This document shows positions 647 to 24,645 of a stretch of 26,660 nt of DNA, one piece after another; within the stretch, counting starts at the first letter, position 1, and each line of letters starts with the position of its first letter. Source of the DNA: a virus; the IMG/VR virus record IMGVR_UViG_3300046471_000258, positions 1 through 26,660 of that record, one strand, 5' to 3'. A program made the position numbers and the translations under genes. The notes beneath the pieces are model-generated. The model saw only the letters and a list, made by a program, of their open reading frames with translations. It was not told the origin of the DNA and made no database searches.

Positions 647-723
647 GGCCCTTTAGCTCAGTTGGTTAGAGCACGCGACTCATAATCGCTTGGTCGCTGG
701 TTCAAGTCCAGCAAGGGCCACCA
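647..723 (+). tRNA. ileX: tRNA-Ile2 (anticodon CAU, lysidine-modified to read AUA)
   Basis: This is a 77-base tRNA with CCA encoded. The acceptor arms GGCCCTT and AAGGGCC pair perfectly, and the T arm is GCTGG-TTCAAGT-CCAGC. The anticodon loop CTCATAA has CAT at 681-683. A CAU anticodon could mean Met, but the body matches the E. coli ileX/ileY type (TTGGTC variable loop, GCTGG T stem) rather than elongator Met, so it is the AUA-reading isoleucine tRNA that needs TilS. Its 3' half is the probable integration site of the prophage. Phage 186 uses the related ileY gene in the same way. Confidence 0.93.
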
Positions 724-3477: not shown

Positions 3478-6327
3478 TTAATCGTTATCCATGCGGGAAC
3501 GTTGCCGGGCGGCGCGGGCGCGGTCACGGGCTTCCAGCTCGGCGCGAATTTGGCGGCTGGTATCCTGGACGCCTAAACCGGCACCGGCGGCAATGGTGTA
3601 ATGGTGCGTGCTGCGGTCGATATAGCTGCGCCCGCCGCCGACGGAAACCGGCGTGTAACCGCCTCCCAGCAGGCCGCCCGGCGGCGGGACAATGGGGGCA
3701 GGATTATCCAGCGGATGCGCTTGCGGATCCCCGTCGCCGGATTGTTTCGAACGCCGGTCAGCCTTATCCGCCGTTTTATCAATGTCAGCCGATTCATCCT
3801 TGATGATGCCGAGTTTCTCCAGCAGCCAGACCACGCTGCTACGCAGCTTATTAGCCACCTGCAGCGGTGCGGTCAGTGCGTTAGCGACCAGCCGACCAAA
3901 CGACACCCCCGCATCTTTACAACTATTCAGCGTTTCCTGCGTGGATTTCACCGGTTGGATCAGGTCTTTGAACCACTGCCACAAGACTTTGAGCCTGTCC
4001 CCAAGCCAGTCAAACACCGGCTTAAGCGGCGCAAACATTTCTTTCACCGGTTCGAACGCCACCCCCAGCCCTTCAATAACGCCCGCAAAGAAGGCGCTGA
4101 TCGGCTCCCAGTATTTACGGATAAGCAGCGCACCGGCGACAATGGCGACACCGACGGCAACAATCGGCCACGTCAGGCCGCCGATCACCGTCGCAATCGC
4201 GCCGCCCACCGTGCCGAGAAGGGTCCAGAGCACGCCCGCAGCGGCGACGATCAGATTAATCCCACTGATAACGGGACCGGCCACCAGGCCAAACACGCCG
4301 AGCGCGCCGATAATCAGCAGCGCACCGCCCGCGATTTTGCCGAGCGTGTCCGCCAGGGCTTTATTGTTCACCACCCACTTATCCAGTTTCAGCACGTAGC
4401 CGGTGGCGGTCTGCACCAGTTTGCGCAGTGATGAATCCTGCTGGTCAAACAGGTCTGTGCCGACCGCCTCATAGGCGGACTGAAATTCCTTAAAGTCGCC
4501 GCCGAGGTTGTTCTGCATGATCGCCACCAGCGCCTCGGTTTTCCCGTCCGAGGTTTTCAACGCCTGGGTAAGCTTGTCGAGCTTGCCGGAAGATGCCCCG
4601 TCCATCAGCACTAATGCCGATTTCATGGCCTCCTCACCGAAAATGGCTTTTATGTATTGTGCCTTTTGGGTGTCACCAAGCTTATTTTTTGAAAAGCTCT
4701 TTTGCATTTCTTTCAGGATGGTGAACAGCGGGCGCATATTGCCCTTACTGTCTGCCGTTTTTACACCAAGTTCACCGAGTGCAGTGGCTGCCGTTCCTGT
4801 GGGAGCCTGTAAGCGAGTAATAACCGCACTGGTTCCCGTACCCGCCATGGAGCCGGTGATATTGGCATCGGCCAGGGCGGCAGCCATCGCCGCTGTTTGT
4901 TCAAGGCTAATTCCTGCACTTTTTGCCACCGGCGCTGCATAGGTCATGGTGTCAGACAGACCATCAAATGTAGCCATTGACTTATTCATAGCTGTCGAAA
5001 TGACATCGCCAATGTGAGCAATATTATCGTTACTCAAACCCATTGCAGCTTTAACACCCATCAGTAGGGTGGCGTTTTCCTCCATGGTGCGCTTGTTTGC
5101 CAGGGACAGATTCAGGATGGTCGGCGTGGCCGCCAGGATCCCGTCCTTATCCCCCCCACCTTTCGCGACAATGATTTGCGCGGCGGCGGCATCATCGGCA
5201 GAGGCGGCGGTGTTGTCGCCGAGCTGCCGCGCCTGGGTGCGCAGCGCGGTCATATCGGCGGAGTCTTTTTCCAGGCCGAGCGTCGCCTGTAACTCGGAGT
5301 TTTTCAGGGCAAAGTCATAGCCGGGTTTGAGCATCCCGGCACCGGCTACCGTGCCCGCCGTCGCAATCCCGACACCCGCCGCCCCTGCGCCGGTGACGCT
5401 GCCGGCCAGTTGTTTGCCCGCCTGATACCGGCCTTTCACGGCGTTGAGCTTGGCCTGCTGCGCGCTCACCCGTGCCAGGGATTCGCGCTGCCGGTTGAGC
5501 TGGGCGGTGGTTTCACTGATAGACGTTCTCAGGCGGCGCTCAGAGTCAGACAGCGTGCGGGTGCTGATGCCCGCCTGGGTAAGTTCGGTGCGCTGACGCT
5601 GCACCGACTGGCGCAGCCCGTTGAACTGGGTCTGCAACTGCGCGGCGGTACGCTTCGCGGACTCCATGGCCTGCGCCTGGGCACGGGTCGGGCTGGCAGT
5701 GTTTTTAAACTGAATCGCCAGCGCCGCCGCTTCCGCTTTAGCGGCGTTGAGCTTCTGGCCGGTGACGGCGAGCTGCGCGCTGGATTTGCGGAAGCCGTCA
5801 ATCTTTCCGGCCTGGGTGTTCAGGTCTTTGAGCGTGGTCTGCGAATTTTTAATCTCTCCGGCCAGCAGGTCATTCACATATTGCTCGGTGGCCATAATCA
5901 CCGAGTCGTCGATCAGCAGGCTGATGGCTTCGGTATTGCTGACCGCAATCACCATCCGCAAAGTTTGCGTGCGCCCTGAACCTTCCGCCAGGGTAGGCTT
6001 GTAGGTGTCCGCCATATTACAGACGGCAATCAGCGTGCCGTCGTCGGCAAACAGCCCCATTTCGCGCATCCAGAAACCGCCGACGCTCGCAGAAATCACC
6101 GCCTCAGCAATCACCCAGTTGCCGTGAGTCGGGTCCAGCTTTAAGGAGTTGAGCGGCGTGCGGTACACCTCTTTAACCAGTTTTGTCTGTGTGGCGACCG
6201 GCGTGGTCGTTTTGCCGTTGCCGTCGCCGACGGCCAACTGCGTAATGTTGATGTCAGTCCCCGCCGCAATGGCCGCCGCAATGCGCGACTGCCCGAGCGT
6301 GGTGACAACGGATTTAAATGTGCTCAT
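3478..6327 (-). CDS. In-frame fusion: tail-fibre H N-terminus joined to tape measure T
   Basis: A 949-residue uninterrupted frame made of two unrelated P2 proteins. Residues 1 to about 157 are the N-terminal, baseplate-binding domain of tail fibre gpH: NITQLAVGDGNGKT, VGGFWMREMGLFADDGTLI, LAEGSGRTQTLRMVI and MATEQYVNDLLAG. From about residue 158 the sequence is tape measure gpT: TLKDLNTQAGKIDGFRKSS, QLNRQRESLARVSAQQAKLN, RQLGDNTAASADDAAAAQI. These are followed by hydrophobic membrane-like stretches around 660-740 and the FDWLGDRLKVLWQWFKDL segment. Only about the first 30 residues of T are missing. The distal part of H and genes G, FI, FII and E/E' that lie between H and T in P2 are absent. 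The join is near 5845-5865. The protein is unlikely to work as either parent. Transcription would now come from the V promoter. Confidence 0.9.
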   Translation of the reverse strand: MSTFKSVVTTLGQSRIAAAIAAGTDINITQLAVGDGNGKTTTPVATQTKLVKEVYRTPLNSLKLDPTHGNWVIAEAVISASVGGFWMREMGLFADDGTLIAVCNMADTYKPTLAEGSGRTQTLRMVIAVSNTEAISLLIDDSVIMATEQYVNDLLAGEIKNSQTTLKDLNTQAGKIDGFRKSSAQLAVTGQKLNAAKAEAAALAIQFKNTASPTRAQAQAMESAKRTAAQLQTQFNGLRQSVQRQRTELTQAGISTRTLSDSERRLRTSISETTAQLNRQRESLARVSAQQAKLNAVKGRYQAGKQLAGSVTGAGAAGVGIATAGTVAGAGMLKPGYDFALKNSELQATLGLEKDSADMTALRTQARQLGDNTAASADDAAAAQIIVAKGGGDKDGILAATPTILNLSLANKRTMEENATLLMGVKAAMGLSNDNIAHIGDVISTAMNKSMATFDGLSDTMTYAAPVAKSAGISLEQTAAMAAALADANITGSMAGTGTSAVITRLQAPTGTAATALGELGVKTADSKGNMRPLFTILKEMQKSFSKNKLGDTQKAQYIKAIFGEEAMKSALVLMDGASSGKLDKLTQALKTSDGKTEALVAIMQNNLGGDFKEFQSAYEAVGTDLFDQQDSSLRKLVQTATGYVLKLDKWVVNNKALADTLGKIAGGALLIIGALGVFGLVAGPVISGINLIVAAAGVLWTLLGTVGGAIATVIGGLTWPIVAVGVAIVAGALLIRKYWEPISAFFAGVIEGLGVAFEPVKEMFAPLKPVFDWLGDRLKVLWQWFKDLIQPVKSTQETLNSCKDAGVSFGRLVANALTAPLQVANKLRSSVVWLLEKLGIIKDESADIDKTADKADRRSKQSGDGDPQAHPLDNPAPIVPPPGGLLGGGYTPVSVGGGRSYIDRSTHHYTIAAGAGLGVQDTSRQIRAELEARDRARAARQRSRMDND

Positions 6328-8252: not shown

Positions 8253-8897
8253 TTATGTTGTCGGTGTACCGGAACTGCCGCCGCCCGTCTGGACGCCACT
8301 GTGTTTATGGGTATGAACAACCACGCCGTTTGAAGTGAGGCTGCCGCCTGAGTGGGTGAGGTTGCCGGTTAGGGTGCCGCCCTGTTTCACCTCCAGGCTG
8401 CCCGTGGTGAGCTTCTTGGTGCAGACCACTTCCGGCGTGTCGAGCGTGATACGCGTTTTCGCCGTGCAGGTGATCAGCGGGGCAGTGACTGCCACCTTAT
8501 CCGACGCGTTTACCGTGGCGGACTTGATACCGGTTGCCAGCAGTGCGCCGGTTTTTGGTTCGTACTCGATCACCGCGCCGTCAGGGAAAGTGACGTGTAC
8601 GGCTTCGGCTGACGCTGACGGCGCTGGAAATTCATCAGAGAAAACGCCTGGCATCACAAAGGCGGTATCCAGCTCACCGCCCAGGCAAAACAATAAAACC
8701 TGCTCACCGACAGAAGGTGCCCACCAGGAACGCGAGCGCCCTGCGCGGGAGGTCAGCCAGTGCAGCCAGTCGGTGACGTTGCCGCCGGTGTTCACGCGAC
8801 AGGTGCCCGCAACTAAATCCACCTCGGCAACGGTGCCAATGCGGATCAGATTGCGCAGCAGGCGCGGAATATCGTTGTTTGGGATGGATGTATTCAT
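8253..8897 (-). CDS. V: Baseplate spike protein gpV
   Basis: This 214-residue homologue of P2 gpV (211) forms the trimeric, membrane-piercing needle under the baseplate. It has an N-terminal OB-fold region (GTVAEVDLVAGTCRVNTG, DWLHWLTSRAGRSRSWWAP, GEQVLLFCLGGE). A beta-helix repeat region follows. The C-terminal HTHKH motif at residues 195-199 is the HxH iron-binding site of the spike tip. It is the first gene of the V operon, with a late-promoter-like dyad about 50-65 bases upstream and a hairpin in its short leader. The site before the ATG is a weak ribosome site. Confidence 0.95.
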   Translation of the reverse strand: MNTSIPNNDIPRLLRNLIRIGTVAEVDLVAGTCRVNTGGNVTDWLHWLTSRAGRSRSWWAPSVGEQVLLFCLGGELDTAFVMPGVFSDEFPAPSASAEAVHVTFPDGAVIEYEPKTGALLATGIKSATVNASDKVAVTAPLITCTAKTRITLDTPEVVCTKKLTTGSLEVKQGGTLTGNLTHSGGSLTSNGVVVHTHKHSGVQTGGGSSGTPTT

Positions 8898-9377: not shown

Positions 9378-9441
9378 TTATGGCATCTCACCCAGTAAAG
9401 TTATCAATGATTCACCTTAACACACTATAAGCATAACCATT

Positions 9442-9560
9442 TTAGCTCCGCGCACTTTTTGAAGTTTCCGGTTTTTCTATCATCAGCCGGTACTCATCTG
9501 GTGACCGGTTATTCAGGTATTCATGAGGCCGCTCGCTGTTGTATTCCGTGAGCCAGCGGG
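9442..9560 (-). pseudogene. Remnant of an IS3-family transposase (OrfB C-terminus)
   Basis: Reading the minus strand from about 9560 to the stop at 9442 gives NPRWLTEYNSERPHEYLNNR and then SPDEYRLM, about 39 codons. This is the C-terminal end of an IS3-type DDE transposase, in which the motif TEYN…RPHE.L lies just after the catalytic Glu region. There is no start, no catalytic DDE, and no upstream transposase sequence, so it is a dead fragment. It marks the left boundary of the AT-rich three-gene block and suggests IS-mediated gain or rearrangement. Confidence 0.85.
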
Positions 9561-9729: not shown

Positions 9730-10710
9730 ATGAGTGAAACAAAGCATATATCTGAAATGGCAGAAAAAGTAGCAGACAACTTGTTCGCAGTTTTTAAATG
9801 GGAAAGAAAGGTTGTTTCTGATCATAGTTGGGATTGTAACAGTCCAGAAGAGCATGGTGGAAAAAAAGATCATCCTTCAGATTGTGTTTTTTATTACAGA
9901 GATCCTTACGATGGCGAAGTTAAATATATAAACACTGATCTAAAAAGTTATGCAAAAACTACAATAAATAAAGAGCAAATTAATAAGGCAATCCATTCAC
10001 TTTCATATGCAACTAATTGTGCGGCATATAATGACAATTGGAGAAAGCTTTTCAAGCCGATAGGGAGTTTTTCAGTTATAGGAATGCTCTTTGTATATAA
10101 TCATTGCGGTGGTTATAACGGGAATTTTTCAGAAATAGTCGCAGAGATTGGAAGTGATGATAATCATTTAGATAGTGACAAAATGATTTGTATTTTCTCT
10201 CCCTATCAAATTACTACTTTGAATAGCATTGCCAGTGATATTAGAGTAATGATAGGCAAGGATGAGTTACCTAAGTTGAATAAATTTAGTTACTATCATC
10301 CAAATGAAATGCTAATTAAAAATCATTTTGACCATGATTATACAGAGCCTGCTACCATTAATGTTTTATCTTCTCCTTGGATTATAATAAAACATGCGGA
10401 ATGTGATAAAGAGAAAGCTGGTTATTTAATATATTATACAAAAGATGGTTCAGAAGAGGAAGAGTTTGATTATTTTATTGATGCATTAAGTTATTATCAA
10501 ATAATAGATAATACTATTAACGTTAGGATTAAACTTACCAAAAAGAATGATCACGCTGCTAATAATTTAATAACTGCCATATGTAAATACTATAAGTTTT
10601 TAGGCCGCAGTGAAGAAGAGTCAAGAGCTTTAGCCAACAACATGGTTAAAGGTACAATTGATCAAGTTGTTCCACAATTTTCGCCGATTGAGTTGGGGGT
10701 GTTGTCGTGA
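9730..10710 (+). CDS. Unknown protein with a PD-(D/E)XK-like nuclease pattern, accessory gene 1
   Basis: A 326-residue soluble protein that I do not recognise by name. The N-terminal 90 residues show the order expected of a PD-(D/E)XK nuclease. There is a first helix with Glu (E12 or E25), then HPSD at 48-51 beginning a beta strand (CVFYYRD). A turn and second strand follow (EVKYINT), ending in DLK at 70-72, with a following helix carrying Gln 83 (KEQINKAIHSL). This D-X18-DXK spacing is typical of Mrr/RecB-type folds. The rest (about 100-326) has no motif I can name and no membrane segment. The gene is AT-rich, about one third G+C by eye, unlike the phage genes. Its stop overlaps the start of the next gene by 4 bases (GTGA), so the two are translationally coupled. 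A defence or DNA-targeting role is inference. Confidence 0.7.
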   Translation: MSETKHISEMAEKVADNLFAVFKWERKVVSDHSWDCNSPEEHGGKKDHPSDCVFYYRDPYDGEVKYINTDLKSYAKTTINKEQINKAIHSLSYATNCAAYNDNWRKLFKPIGSFSVIGMLFVYNHCGGYNGNFSEIVAEIGSDDNHLDSDKMICIFSPYQITTLNSIASDIRVMIGKDELPKLNKFSYYHPNEMLIKNHFDHDYTEPATINVLSSPWIIIKHAECDKEKAGYLIYYTKDGSEEEEFDYFIDALSYYQIIDNTINVRIKLTKKNDHAANNLITAICKYYKFLGRSEEESRALANNMVKGTIDQVVPQFSPIELGVLS

Positions 10711-11810
10711 GTGAGGTAGAGAAAAAATATGGTCATAGCATATATTATATGAATGATCAAAACATAAGAGATGGTCTTTTAGCTCAAAAAATAAAACCTT
10801 TGCATTTAATTAAAATCTTAAAAGAGCGAAATATCATTGTTTCGCCTTTAGCGTCTAAAGAAGAATTGATCAACATACTAAAATACCTCAGATTCGACTA
10901 TTATGAATATGTTTATTTATCCTCTTTACTTGCTAATCAGGATAAAAAGGAAAGTAAGTCGAGTATTGATATTGATAAAAAGGTTACAACAACGCAGATT
11001 GTACAAACCTTTGATGCAATAAAAGGCGCCTTAGAGGACCATCAAATAACTGCGAATGTTCAAAAGTTTGGGTATAAAAAAGTAGTAATCAATTATGAAT
11101 ATGTGGAATTTGATCATTCAAAACCACCTATGCGCCAAAAATCATTCCGCAAAGGCATTGTTGAATGTGACATAAATGATAAGGGAGCTATGTTAAATTA
11201 CCCCGCTAATAAAGTTGGCTCTATTATAAAGGAGCATTTAATTAGTCAACTTTCTGCAAAGCTACAAACAGAGTTAAAACCAATTGAGTTTGATTTTGAA
11301 TTCTCTAGCATAGAGACAAGAAACAAATTTTTCCTGGAAGTAATAAATAATGTCGAAAATTATGATGTTTATGATGTAGTCACTGTTGCAGTTAAAAAAG
11401 TTGATGAGAAGAAGGAGCAGGAAAGTTCTTTGACAGATGAAAGTGAAAGTGTAGACGAAGCTTTCACTGGAGAGGTTAGGAATGCTATATTAAGAGGAAG
11501 GCAAATATTAACATCTAAAATATATGGTAGTTTAAATGTCGATAACTATTACATTTATAAAATAACTTGGAAGATACGTAAGGTTATTCCAAAGGTTGGT
11601 TCGGATAAATCTGATTGTTACACTGTTGAGATAGAGTTTAGTGATAAAGATAAGGCTAAAGGGTTAAAATATTGTGTTAAAACAGTGCAAAAATATTCGT
11701 CAAGAGATAAACTTAATGTCACTACAGAAAATCCGTTGAAGAGCGATCAAGAAAATATAGGTAAGTTAATATATCAAACAGCTCTTAAAGTATATTCTTC
11801 ATTACCATAA
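10707..11810 (+). CDS. Unknown protein, accessory gene 2
   Basis: This 367-residue protein starts at a GTG inside the GTGA overlap with gene 1, with a GGGGG ribosome site 8 bases upstream. Residues 30-60 (LHLIKILKERNIIV, then SKEELINIL) resemble a SAP/HeH helix-extended-helix motif, which often binds DNA. A Lys/Ser-rich linker follows at about 80-95. The middle part (about 100-230) alternates strands and helices. An acidic, low-complexity linker around 233-250 separates a C-terminal domain (about 255-367). There are no membrane segments. The coupling to gene 1 and the DNA-binding-like start suggest a partner or specificity subunit for the putative nuclease, but this is inference and no family is recognised. 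Confidence 0.7.
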   Translation: MSEVEKKYGHSIYYMNDQNIRDGLLAQKIKPLHLIKILKERNIIVSPLASKEELINILKYLRFDYYEYVYLSSLLANQDKKESKSSIDIDKKVTTTQIVQTFDAIKGALEDHQITANVQKFGYKKVVINYEYVEFDHSKPPMRQKSFRKGIVECDINDKGAMLNYPANKVGSIIKEHLISQLSAKLQTELKPIEFDFEFSSIETRNKFFLEVINNVENYDVYDVVTVAVKKVDEKKEQESSLTDESESVDEAFTGEVRNAILRGRQILTSKIYGSLNVDNYYIYKITWKIRKVIPKVGSDKSDCYTVEIEFSDKDKAKGLKYCVKTVQKYSSRDKLNVTTENPLKSDQENIGKLIYQTALKVYSSLP

Positions 11811-11822
11811 AGAGACGCTGCG

Positions 11823-12491
11823 ATGGAAAAAAGAATAGTATTTTATGATTTCGAATCAAAACTAAATCACGAGCAAATCGTTAACCGATTTCTTGAGTAT
11901 CGTTTTACACATGATGCCAATTCTGGTTTTAGTCTAAATAAGAGAAATGATAATGGGATTTATTTTCGGCACATAAAAAAGAATATCAATATTGATAAGG
12001 TTGTGACGCCCTTCGGAGATGAGTATGAAAATACGACTATTGATTATGCTATCAATGAAGTTAAAATAAAAAACAATACGCTATATATTACTAACCCGAC
12101 AAGATCACTAATACCATTCAGGACTGATTTATTGAAAGCTTTGGGTTTTCAATGTATTATTGCTAATAAAATTATCAACTTAAAGAATGTTATATCGTTA
12201 CTGTGCAAACAGGAATATGATGTTAATTTGACTGATATTGAGCTTACAACCAACGAATTGTTCAAAGACTCGCGAGTGAAAATGGTTGTTTCTTCAAATT
12301 CTGATCTGATTAGCAAGATGAAAAACTATCTCGGAGATATTGATTCAAACTTAACTAAGATAGGTTTTAATATGAAAATCCTTAACGAGGAGTATTTTGT
12401 TGAAATTGGTTATAAAGGAAGCGTCAAAATTAAAGGAAGGTTAGTAGAGGATTTTGCGGAGAATTATGTTATTAGAAATTTTCTATCCTGA
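11823..12491 (+). CDS. Unknown protein, accessory gene 3
   Basis: A 222-residue soluble protein of unknown family, rich in Asn, Ile and Lys. It starts 12 bases after gene 2 with a weak AGAG ribosome site, so it probably belongs to the same transcript. The N-terminus (KRIVFYDFESKLNHEQIVNRF) looks like a strand followed by a helix. The centre has strand-rich segments (VKIKNNTLYIT), and the C-terminus has VEIGYKGSVKIKGRL. No catalytic motif, signal peptide or membrane span is seen. By position it could be a regulator, an adaptor or an immunity-like component of the operon; the sequence does not decide. No clear hairpin terminator follows. Confidence 0.65.
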   Translation: MEKRIVFYDFESKLNHEQIVNRFLEYRFTHDANSGFSLNKRNDNGIYFRHIKKNINIDKVVTPFGDEYENTTIDYAINEVKIKNNTLYITNPTRSLIPFRTDLLKALGFQCIIANKIINLKNVISLLCKQEYDVNLTDIELTTNELFKDSRVKMVVSSNSDLISKMKNYLGDIDSNLTKIGFNMKILNEEYFVEIGYKGSVKIKGRLVEDFAENYVIRNFLS

Positions 12492-12550: not shown

Positions 12551-12592
12551 TTATTTGATGGACACTGCTGGACTTGAACCAGCGACCAAGCG
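12551..12592 (-). other. tRNA-Ile 3'-half fragment (fossil attachment-like site)
   Basis: On the minus strand, 27 bases (12592 down to 12566) are identical to ileX positions 687-713, covering the end of the anticodon stem, variable loop and T arm. Weaker similarity continues through the acceptor end and CAAAT. On the other side the loop reads CTTATAG instead of CTCATAA. The 5' half of a tRNA is missing, so it cannot be functional. It looks like the att copy that a tRNA-integrating element carries. Confidence 0.75.
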
Positions 12593-12626
12593 CCTATAAG
12601 TAAGCCATAAGTATTGTCGCATGGCA

Positions 12627-12862: not shown

Positions 12863-13321
12863 TCAGGTGAAGTCTGAGCTAATAAGTATTAGCAATTCAT
12901 CTTCCACAATCTTCATATCCTCCGCGTCCAGTCCTAACAGCGGGCGCGCCGGATACTGCATTTCTTTTGCACGGACGGAAGGACGATCCCGCAGCCCGTA
13001 CTGATGCACTTTTGCCATCCGTTGCACCTGTCCGGTGAATTCCACCACCGCGTCGTCAGCGGTACCTTTGGCCTTCATGTATTTTGCCGTGCGCAGTTTG
13101 GCGAACATTTCCCGCTTAATGCGGCCTTTCTTTGCCCGTAAAAGCTGCGGACGTCGCGGCGTGAACGGCTGCCCCTCCGGCGTGACCTGCTGTTTAATGC
13201 GCTGCTGCTGATGTTTGCGCAGACGCTTCGCAATGGTCGCCGCCATCGCCTTCCGGCTTTGTGGCGACAGTGCCTCAATCAGCCCCGCCAGGCGGGTATC
13301 AAACGCTGACAGTTCACTCAT
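12863..13321 (-). CDS. S: Tail completion protein gpS
   Basis: This 152-residue homologue of P2 gpS (150) completes the head-proximal end of the tail and is needed for head-tail joining. Matching segments are LAGLIEALSPQSRKAMAATI near the start, a strongly basic middle (KRLRKHQQQRIKQQ), and AMKEMQYPARPLLGL-type C-terminus (here KEMQYPARPLLGLDAEDM). It overlaps R by 8 bases and is the last gene of its operon, facing the accessory block. Intact. Confidence 0.92.
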   Translation of the reverse strand: MSELSAFDTRLAGLIEALSPQSRKAMAATIAKRLRKHQQQRIKQQVTPEGQPFTPRRPQLLRAKKGRIKREMFAKLRTAKYMKAKGTADDAVVEFTGQVQRMAKVHQYGLRDRPSVRAKEMQYPARPLLGLDAEDMKIVEDELLILISSDFT

Positions 13322-22203: not shown

Positions 22204-22434
22204 CTCTCCCCCAAAGAAGTACTGTTTATTTGTCCAGTACTATAAAATCATCTGATTATAATTTCCATAAAAATCTGTGCCTTATTCGATAACTTGTTGA
22301 ATCCGAAAAGCATCCCGCTTAATTTATGTTCAATCTTCACCAAGAGAACTATTGCTGCTTTTTTATTCGACAATTGGTTTATACGCTTGATACACTCCTC
22401 TCAGTGAGAAATTAGAGCTATTTATGAGGTGAAC

Positions 22435-23190
22435 GTGGCTCGTTATTTACAAACGTTTGTAAAAATTTTTTCCCGTGAGGAATATAGAAATGATTTTCTC
22501 AATGGAAAACTTTACATGAATACAATTGAGTACTTTAAAAATTATGAAGAAGTAGCAAATTCAAATATCGCAGATAAAAATGAAGCCTTAATGGCGTGGT
22601 TGCAACCTAATGATGTTAAGGTGCAACTCCAACTTGGCGATACAGAATATGAATTATCGTCAAAGGATTTCGCATCTCCGCTAACTATAAGTATCAGTTC
22701 ACATAATAACTGCAATATTTTTTGCTTAACGTACTTACATGGAAAGGATATAGATATAGACTCACCATTTGATAGTGCTACCTTTGAGATTTTGCAAAAC
22801 TCTTTTATCTTGGATAAAAGGATAAGTGAGTTAGGTGAGTTTGCAGTATCAATTAACCCGGAGATTTTTCTTGAGAGAGTAAGAAAAGCCGTGGAGGATT
22901 TAGTTAAAAACAAGGCAATTGTGTCCGGAATTAGCAAAGCCGTAACATATTATGATGAGGATAAATCCAGTTTGAGTTTAGACTTACACACCGATGCTGT
23001 CTTTCATAAGCAAAGTAAATACTCCCACCAATCGGAATTTAGAATCTGCATATTTAGAAACAATACGACTGGGGAACCATTTATTCTAGATGTGGGGGAA
23101 CTCCGTGATATTGCTAAGATTATAAACACTAAGGATTTAAATAATTTCTTCAACCTTCAATTAGATAAAGTTTTTGAATCAGATTCATAA
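22435..23190 (+). CDS. Unknown 251-residue protein in the A-to-cos cargo site
   Basis: The protein starts at GTG 22435, chosen because GAGG lies 6-9 bases upstream; a GTG two codons earlier has no spacing to that site. The N-terminus has F-x-G-KLYMNTIEYFKNYEE followed by DKNEALMAW, a pattern I have seen in uncharacterised accessory proteins (hydrophobic strand, 'YMNT-x-x-YF', then an acidic D-x-E). The centre is beta-rich, with HNNCNIFCLTYLHG at about 88-101, and the C-terminus has HQSEFRICIF. No membrane spans. It is AT-rich against its neighbours and on the opposite strand. It occupies the site where P2 carries the phage-exclusion genes tin and old, so an anti-phage role is a reasonable guess but unproven. 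Confidence 0.65.
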   Translation: MARYLQTFVKIFSREEYRNDFLNGKLYMNTIEYFKNYEEVANSNIADKNEALMAWLQPNDVKVQLQLGDTEYELSSKDFASPLTISISSHNNCNIFCLTYLHGKDIDIDSPFDSATFEILQNSFILDKRISELGEFAVSINPEIFLERVRKAVEDLVKNKAIVSGISKAVTYYDEDKSSLSLDLHTDAVFHKQSKYSHQSEFRICIFRNNTTGEPFILDVGELRDIAKIINTKDLNNFFNLQLDKVFESDS

Positions 23191-23199
23191 TTTATAAAG

Positions 23200-24645
23200 T
23201 TATTGATAAAAGTCACCCCAATCATCGACCAGCTTGAAACTCTTCTCGATCCCACTGAAACTTATTTTTGCTCCACGGCTTAAAGCTTCCAGCTCCCAAC
23301 GCTCCGCAGTGATATTGCTTTTCATCAATTCGCGCTTAATTTCTGGTAGGCGCGCCCGTTCTTCTATCGTCAATCTTGCCGATGGAGCAACATCGCGCCC
23401 CTTTGTTGGGTCAAAACTTCGCTGCGCTTTGCTGACTCTCAGTGTTTCCTCCCGTATACGCGCCACAATCGCCCTCACGGCGGCTGTGTCTGTCCAGTCA
23501 ATAACTCGCAGGTTGTTCAAATTGGACGCAGTAAGGGCGCTCCCAGCCTGACTATCGCGCCTATTTGCAGCCTGTTTCTTTCCACCTAACCCACAGTTAT
23601 TGACAGGACTCCGAGGCGCGCCGGAGGCGCTTTTTAAGGCCAAAACCTCAACGTCAACGACGGAAGAAACGATGCGCCATTGAGTTGTACGGGTTTCATA
23701 AACGCGGGAGTCGCCAAGGTGGGGGGCAAAAATACCCACAACCTTTTTCACTTCTTCATCGTATGCGTTCAGCTCGTTAGCAACGCGGCGGGCAACACGC
23801 ACAGTCTGAACGTCACGTGGGACATTTGCGCCGCCCTGGGCTGACATGTACGCCATAAAATCACCGGCATCAGCAGCAGCGCGAACGGCTTCCACTTCTT
23901 CGTCAAAGGTTTCAGTCAGACTGATGGAACGGATGCGGCGGCACTCACGGTATGAACCCATCGTAGGCAGGCCGATAGGATGAAATTGAGGGATACGCCA
24001 GGTAGCAGCCCAGGCGGTAACAGCGGCAGCGGAGTCTGTCAGTAACTCGCCGGTTTCGTGGTCACGCTCGCCTTCCAGTGCGTAACCGTCGATGTTCTTT
24101 GCGATGTATTTGGCGATATAGCCAGCCGCGCCGCCGCGATTCAGGTGCTTACAGTCAAAGCGGTTCTTAGCGGCACCGCGTTCGTCACCGTCTTCTTTCA
24201 TGGCGTATTTGCGCATGATATCGATCACCCGCTGACGCATGGCTGGTTTGGTGAATAGCATCATGTGCCAGTGCGGCGTCGCGTCGTGGTGAGGCTCGAC
24301 AACGCGCATCCCATAAACAGACAGACCGCTAACGCCGATTGCGGCCGTGGCACTCAGAGCGTGCATGGGTAAATTATCGGGCTTCGCTTCATTCACTGGC
24401 ACCGCTGGCAAACAGTTAAGCTGAGCCAACAAGCCATCAAGCAGCGTTGAATCATCGGTGTAATCCGTGATGGTGATCAGCTCCACAATGGTTAAACGGT
24501 GCGGCTGCATTGGATTCAGCTTGTTCCGTAAAACCTGGGCAGTGATGCCCAAAACACTGGCAACCTCGGTCAGATTGTGCGCCAAAGAGAACCGGCGGCA
24601 CGCCGTATCAAAGCAGGGATGTATGGAGGTCTGATAATCAAACAT
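23200..24645 (-). CDS. In-frame fusion: CII N-terminus joined to replication initiator A C-terminal half
   Basis: A 481-residue intact frame with two sources. Residues 1 to about 104 are a 186-type CII regulator, whose N-terminus has a helix-turn-helix (VASVLGITAQVLRNKLNP at 28-45). It continues LTIVELITITDYTDDSTLLD and CLPAVPVNEA. From about residue 108 it is the P2 gpA rolling-circle initiator. This part has the HUH motif PHWHMM (H125, H127) and the tyrosine pair Y176-IAK-Y180 in GYIAKYIAKNIDGYAL, matching P2 Y450 and Y454. The distance from the tyrosines to the C-terminus also fits P2. About 380 N-terminal residues of A, the rest of CII, and the genes normally between them (such as fil) are missing. 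The join is near 24310-24335. A GAGGTAA site precedes the ATG. Whether it still nicks is unknown. Confidence 0.88.
   Translation of the reverse strand: MFDYQTSIHPCFDTACRRFSLAHNLTEVASVLGITAQVLRNKLNPMQPHRLTIVELITITDYTDDSTLLDGLLAQLNCLPAVPVNEAKPDNLPMHALSATAAIGVSGLSVYGMRVVEPHHDATPHWHMMLFTKPAMRQRVIDIMRKYAMKEDGDERGAAKNRFDCKHLNRGGAAGYIAKYIAKNIDGYALEGERDHETGELLTDSAAAVTAWAATWRIPQFHPIGLPTMGSYRECRRIRSISLTETFDEEVEAVRAAADAGDFMAYMSAQGGANVPRDVQTVRVARRVANELNAYDEEVKKVVGIFAPHLGDSRVYETRTTQWRIVSSVVDVEVLALKSASGAPRSPVNNCGLGGKKQAANRRDSQAGSALTASNLNNLRVIDWTDTAAVRAIVARIREETLRVSKAQRSFDPTKGRDVAPSARLTIEERARLPEIKRELMKSNITAERWELEALSRGAKISFSGIEKSFKLVDDWGDFYQ
23594..23636 (-). other. P2-type replication origin (nick region) inside A
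   Basis: On the minus strand the stretch reads GGCGCGCCTCGGAGTCCTGT followed by CAATAACTG, preceded by a second GCGCCTC copy. This is the sequence I recall around the P2/186 ori, which lies within gene A and is nicked by gpA. The exact nick base is not assigned here. Confidence 0.7.

Follow-up and report, generated by a model that had tools for sequence, protein, structure and literature searches.

A three-gene system from P2-like prophages, without clear domains, protects E. coli against phage P1 (Rousset et al. 2022, PMC9122126), and Rst_3HP (here 3HP) was described in the DefenseFinder paper as mainly prophage-borne (PMC9090908). Standard defence-finding programs list 3HP, its proteins mostly still carry the name hypothetical, and our literature search for its mechanism found no paper. 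Two groups of described proteins serve as points of comparison. The first comprises nuclease systems: Hachiman (HamAB), in which mutation of HamA (E138A, K140A) abolishes defence (PMC12278908), and AbpAB and Cap4, whose effectors are PD-(D/E)XK nucleases. The second is the RdgC/RexA/Iml3-Chl4 fold class, in which RdgC and RexA are homodimers, Iml3-Chl4 is a heterodimer, and all bind DNA (PMC11077077). The system itself has been known since 2022; what is new here is a structural reading of all three 3HP proteins, obtained from a diverged copy.

The window analysed is a stretch of 26,660 nucleotides (positions 1 to 26,660 of IMG/VR record IMGVR_UViG_3300046471_000258). Inside a P2-like prophage it carries a cassette of three genes, hp1, hp2 and hp3, on the strand opposite to its neighbours V and S, with a GC content of ~31% against ~58% in the flanking late genes. 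The cassette and its surroundings are as follows.

647-723, plus strand: tRNA (anticodon CAU) towards the left end of the window
8253-8897, minus strand: late gene V, flanking the cassette
9428-9558, minus strand: remains of an IS3-family transposase, immediately upstream of the cassette, 84.7% identical to annotated E. coli IS3 family transposases
9730-10710, plus strand: hp1, encoding Hp1 (ORF call, ATG start, 326 aa)
10707-11810, plus strand: hp2, encoding Hp2 (ORF call, GTG start, 367 aa)
11823-12491, plus strand: hp3, encoding Hp3 (ORF call, ATG start, 222 aa)
12553-12601, minus strand: tRNA-Ile 3' half in diverged form, adjoining the cassette on its downstream side, identical at 42/49 positions (86%) to the tRNA at 647-723 and matching E. 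coli tRNA-Ile
12863-13321, minus strand: late gene S, flanking the cassette

The first two genes overlap by exactly four bases (GTGA, 10707-10710) and exactly 12 bases (11811-11822) separate hp2 from hp3, as given in the preliminary description of an AT-rich, plus-strand operon between S and V. In the reference phage P2 the S-V slot is occupied by the nonessential orf30, likewise on the opposite strand, which makes this position a known cargo slot. The IS3 piece and the tRNA-Ile half on either side mark the cassette as imported. Promoter and terminator scans performed no better than on shuffled sequence. The tRNA-Ile half adjoining the cassette could also be an old attachment-site footprint.

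PADLOC, a search that the preliminary description had proposed, matched the three proteins in order: Hp1 to PDLC03004 (E 7.7e-63), Hp2 to PDLC03005 (E 1.8e-28) and Hp3 to PDLC03006 (E 2.9e-10), with the genes adjacent and on one strand. Hp1 and Hp2 also match phrog_7059 and phrog_6531, respectively, and a Vibrio phage record with a 50% identical Hp1 carries the same triad under the labels Rst_3HP__Hp1, Hp2 and Hp3. By these family matches the cassette is a diverged member of the known 3HP anti-phage system, and the PADLOC and Rst_3HP names suggest that the clone published in 2022 belongs to this family. The matches bear out the earlier suggestion of defence cargo in a P2-like prophage with no structural protein among the three, and they replace the idea of an uncharacterised, possibly new and unnamed system. 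GAPS4, then offered as a comparator, is by that description a two-part system, whereas the cassette has three genes.

The cassette shares with published 3HP the three protein families, the gene order, carriage by a P2-like prophage and the absence of any Pfam domain, and differs in lying between S and V, not between Q and A. Its Hp1 shares only ~37% identity with the Q-A copies from E. coli; a rarer E. coli copy is closer, at 76%. Pfam and NCBIfam searches with Hp1, Hp2 and Hp3 returned chance-level matches only, and searching the PDB by sequence alone, whether with single proteins or with profiles, yielded nothing of use.

The three genes form an obligate triad. In a collection of loci that began from Hp1 and drew on genomes, viral contigs and annotated records, all three were present, ordered and on the same strand in every one of the 168 loci that no contig end truncates, a count that takes in the window and its copy L001, and each of five incomplete loci stops at a contig end; the co-occurrence that the preliminary description had proposed to examine is thus complete. 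At <95% Hp1 identity, 122 loci are distinct, and hosts extend from many proteobacteria to metagenome-assembled genomes assigned to cyanobacteria and Verrucomicrobia. The Q-A hotspot holds 55 of the 80 viral loci and the S-V slot two (L165 and L166, whose Hp1 identity is ~28%), and placement between S and V therefore arose more than once. The Pseudomonas filamentous phages 54-4 and 99-2 carry the triad at the end of their 13-kb genomes, an unusual carrier.

Hp1 is a predicted PD-(D/E)XK nuclease candidate and HamA-like effector, a reading that rests on its conserved residues and its modelled fold. Two sites carry the predicted catalytic residues.

9880-9882, plus strand: codon of D51 (HPSD motif), the predicted catalytic acid; invariant, aligned with HGxD of HamA, beside or in strand 47-57
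9937-9945, plus strand: codons of D70-L71-K72, the (D/E)XK motif; invariant, aligned with ESK of HamA, in strand 64-74

Across 68 diverse relatives D51, D70, L71, K72, H48, P49, W24 and C36 are invariant and E3 is invariant or nearly so; the invariance of D51 is partly selected, as the search patterns for genomes and viral contigs contained D51 and not D70 or K72. An AlphaFold2 model built with these relatives (pLDDT 92.6, pTM 0.92) contains helix 2-21, strands 47-57 and 64-74, helix 81-98 and strand 114-124, the order of the PD-(D/E)XK core, with D51 and D70-L-K72 on two adjacent strands, as judged from strand assignment and not from side-chain distances. In a Foldseek search of the PDB its top match was HamA of Hachiman (8vx9_A, E 3.9e-4, probability 0.99), followed at lower ranks by FokI, Cap4, MspJI, EcoO109I and Can2. 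A profile comparison of Hp1 with HamA gave a weak score that nonetheless exceeded those of 19 unrelated families in both directions, and placed D51 on the HamA D and D70-L-K72 on the HamA E-x-K. RefSeq independently names one E. coli Hp1 a 'PD-(D/E)XK nuclease domain-containing protein'.

Among solved structures, HamA is thus closest to Hp1 in both fold and D-(D/E)xK motif. The likeness is one of fold only, and Hp1 stands outside the Pfam HamA family: no PF08878 match appeared at E up to 1, and none was listed for the 68 members at 0.05. The preliminary description, which had read gene 1 as a PD-(D/E)XK nuclease candidate, is upheld for the nuclease and for D51, D70 and K72. The last residue of its proposed layout, Q83, is conserved only as far as close relatives, and the clustering of motif residues that it expected of the fold is seen at the level of strands.

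Hp2 and Hp3 were modelled together. The genes lie in the same frame, and the two proteins were treated as one chain by translating the hp2 stop codon (TAA) to Q under NCBI table 6; related loci supplied 120 further rows of the tandem alignment. Two parts of Hp2 are distinguished.

10797-10880, plus strand: Hp2 residues 31-58, a helix-loop-helix resembling SAP/HeH (helices 31-40 and 51-58 with a 10-residue loop in the AlphaFold2 model)
10956-11801, plus strand: Hp2 residues 84-365, the RdgC/Iml3-type core, with the same helix and strand order as Hp3 and a profile match to Hp3 above the null in both directions

Several results point to a shared RdgC/RexA/CENP-L-N-type fold in the Hp2 core and Hp3. 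The tandem AlphaFold2 model (pLDDT 91.9, pTM 0.76) matched E. coli RdgC first in Foldseek (2owl, E 1.7e-6, probability 1.00), a structural match to a solved member of the RdgC/RexA/Iml3-Chl4 class, with Iml3/CENP-L, CENP-N, RnlA, lambda RexA and TBP next; against a viral library it matched phage RdgC proteins. The RdgC match belongs to the tandem as a whole, and which protein it concerns is read from element order and profile scores. The secondary-structure strings of the Hp2 core and Hp3 (EHEEEEHHEEHEEEH and EHEEEEHEHEEHEEEH, respectively) follow the same order bar one short strand, and the profile match between the two proteins falls on equivalent elements. Hp3-RdgC and Hp2-Hp3 profile scores, individually weak like that of Hp1 with HamA (P ~0.003-0.01), exceeded those of 19 unrelated families in both directions, and the control comparison of Hp1 with RdgC failed in reverse. 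A shuffle-based null for these comparisons was too lenient, as the same negative control passed it, and was replaced by the 19 families. The Hp3 orthologue of Pseudomonas phage 54-4 is independently annotated as 'RdgC-like'.

Neither Hp2 nor Hp3 matches RdgC (PF04381) in Pfam, and Pfam-type domain searches found no helicase domain in either. The SAP/HeH-like N-terminus proposed earlier for gene 2 is borne out by two of the short helices modelled there, within a region of family consensus TxxxLxxLxxxRGIxxSxxxxRxxLA, and not by Pfam, which returned no significant SAP/HeH match there. Gene 3, for which no recognisable domain had been seen, falls by the tandem model and the profile scores in the RdgC-like fold class, and is modelled here as a predicted DNA-binding partner.

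Since the dimers of RdgC, RexA and Iml3-Chl4 bind DNA, the model that suggests itself for Hp2-Hp3 is a heterodimer like Iml3-Chl4. RdgC itself is a recombination-associated ring protein whose fold class is common to Hp3 and, by element order, to the Hp2 core; its dimers encircle DNA, whereas 3HP has two different subunits and a nuclease. Lambda RexA, of RexAB, is a prophage exclusion protein that likewise has an RdgC-type DNA-binding fold; its partner RexB is a membrane protein, where 3HP has a nuclease. Iml3-Chl4 (CENP-L-CENP-N) of the kinetochore unites two related RdgC-type proteins, the one larger than the other, in a heterodimer. It is eukaryotic and structural in role, and its resemblance to Hp2-Hp3 is one of fold only.

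We propose that 3HP is cargo in which a HamA-type PD-(D/E)XK DNA nuclease, Hp1, would serve as the effector, and an RdgC-like Hp2-Hp3 pair would sense phage DNA and license it. Probably the Hp2 core associates with Hp3, and the two together bind DNA or embrace it, with Hp2 contributing the additional SAP/HeH-like helical domain at its N-terminus. Upon infection, this pair would recognise intermediates that the phage produces, whether of DNA or of DNA with protein, whereupon it would place or unleash Hp1, whose cutting of DNA may block replication or kill the infected cell. So read, 3HP would be a counterpart of Hachiman with a DNA-clamp sensor in place of the helicase: Hachiman has the SF2 helicase HamB, and 3HP has two RdgC-type partners instead. 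AbpAB and Cap4, comparable in their effectors, have a helicase (AbpB) and a SAVED sensor (Cap4), neither of which occurs in the cassette. We consider this explanation as a whole rather probable, and count against it that the RdgC-type fold also resembles proteins of other roles (RnlA, TBP). A more specific proposal is put forward tentatively, and may well prove wrong: two different RdgC-type proteins would close around DNA as a clamp, on the plan of Iml3-Chl4 (CENP-L/CENP-N), and control a HamA-like nuclease, so that 3HP would detect foreign or damaged DNA without a helicase. If true, the clamp-gated nuclease would be a sensor-effector architecture without a description among defence systems in the literature searched. 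The pairing of a HamA-like nuclease with two partners of RdgC type gives 3HP named catalytic residues and a testable sensor, and would bring immunity among the functions of the RdgC/RexA/CENP-L-N fold.

The alternative that survives best, although we regard it as unlikely, is that Hp2-Hp3, with a DNA-binding fold re-purposed for recognising protein, respond to a protein of the phage (a structural, recombination or single-strand-binding protein, for instance) and then activate Hp1. Phage SSB triggers several nuclease systems, including AbpAB and Hachiman (PMC10732053), and the DNA binding of RexA in vitro is uncorrelated with phage exclusion in vivo (PMC11077077). Hp3 has almost no invariant residues among its relatives, which fits a sensor under rapid evolution. 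The proteins that the Hp2+Hp3 model matches best are, however, mostly DNA-binding, and the SAP/HeH-like helix-loop-helix of Hp2 likewise argues for DNA as the ligand.

A toxin-antitoxin arrangement, in which Hp1 would be constitutively toxic, held by Hp2/Hp3 and freed upon infection, appears improbable. It would suit the tight translational coupling of hp1 and hp2 and the copies in which hp1 is broken beside intact hp2 and hp3, namely E. coli M9682-C1 (L244), where two IS1 copies interrupt hp1, and Vibrio phage PQ189295, where hp1 is frameshifted. The reverse is seen in L143/L269, where an IS3-type insertion (7037-8226 of L143) breaks the C-terminus of hp2 and leaves hp1 and hp3 intact. With one copy reversed and counts too small for the loss of hp1 to serve as a toxin-antitoxin sign, the decay patterns do not favour a simple system of this kind. 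Cells with inactive HamA-HamB interfaces are also viable, indicating that HamA, the closest solved relative of Hp1, needs activation (PMC12278908).

Equally doubtful, in our estimate, is a restriction-type Hp1 for DNA that is modified or of particular sequence, in which direct binding of Hp2-Hp3 to the DNA of the phage would provide the specificity. The presence of FokI, MspJI and EcoO109I among the fold matches of Hp1 fits such a role, and the lack of a methyltransferase in the cassette would fit a modification-dependent enzyme, but the top match, HamA, degrades host and phage DNA indiscriminately (PMC12278908).

The host prophage itself looks defective. In the ORF at 23200-24645 (minus strand) the N-terminus of a CII regulator (Phage_CP76) is followed by the C-terminal portion of replication protein A, which is thereby truncated. 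A second ORF (3478-6327, minus strand) fuses the N-terminal part of a tail fibre (gpH-like, residues 1-160) with tape-measure protein T, and between I and T the genes G, FI, FII and E are absent. These fusions reflect either a defective prophage or an assembly artefact; if they are genuine, the prophage would yield no particles, and the cassette would have outlived it with its three genes intact. That the cassette is itself inherited debris without function, as the missing genes, the two fusions and the IS3 and tRNA remnants on either side might suggest, is improbable given three full-length ORFs with intact motifs and normal spacing. Elsewhere in the prophage, an AT-rich gene at 22429-23190 (plus strand), in the Q-A (cos) cargo hotspot, has no PADLOC or Pfam match; it belongs to phrog_26561, to which no function is assigned, and is possibly a second cargo gene.
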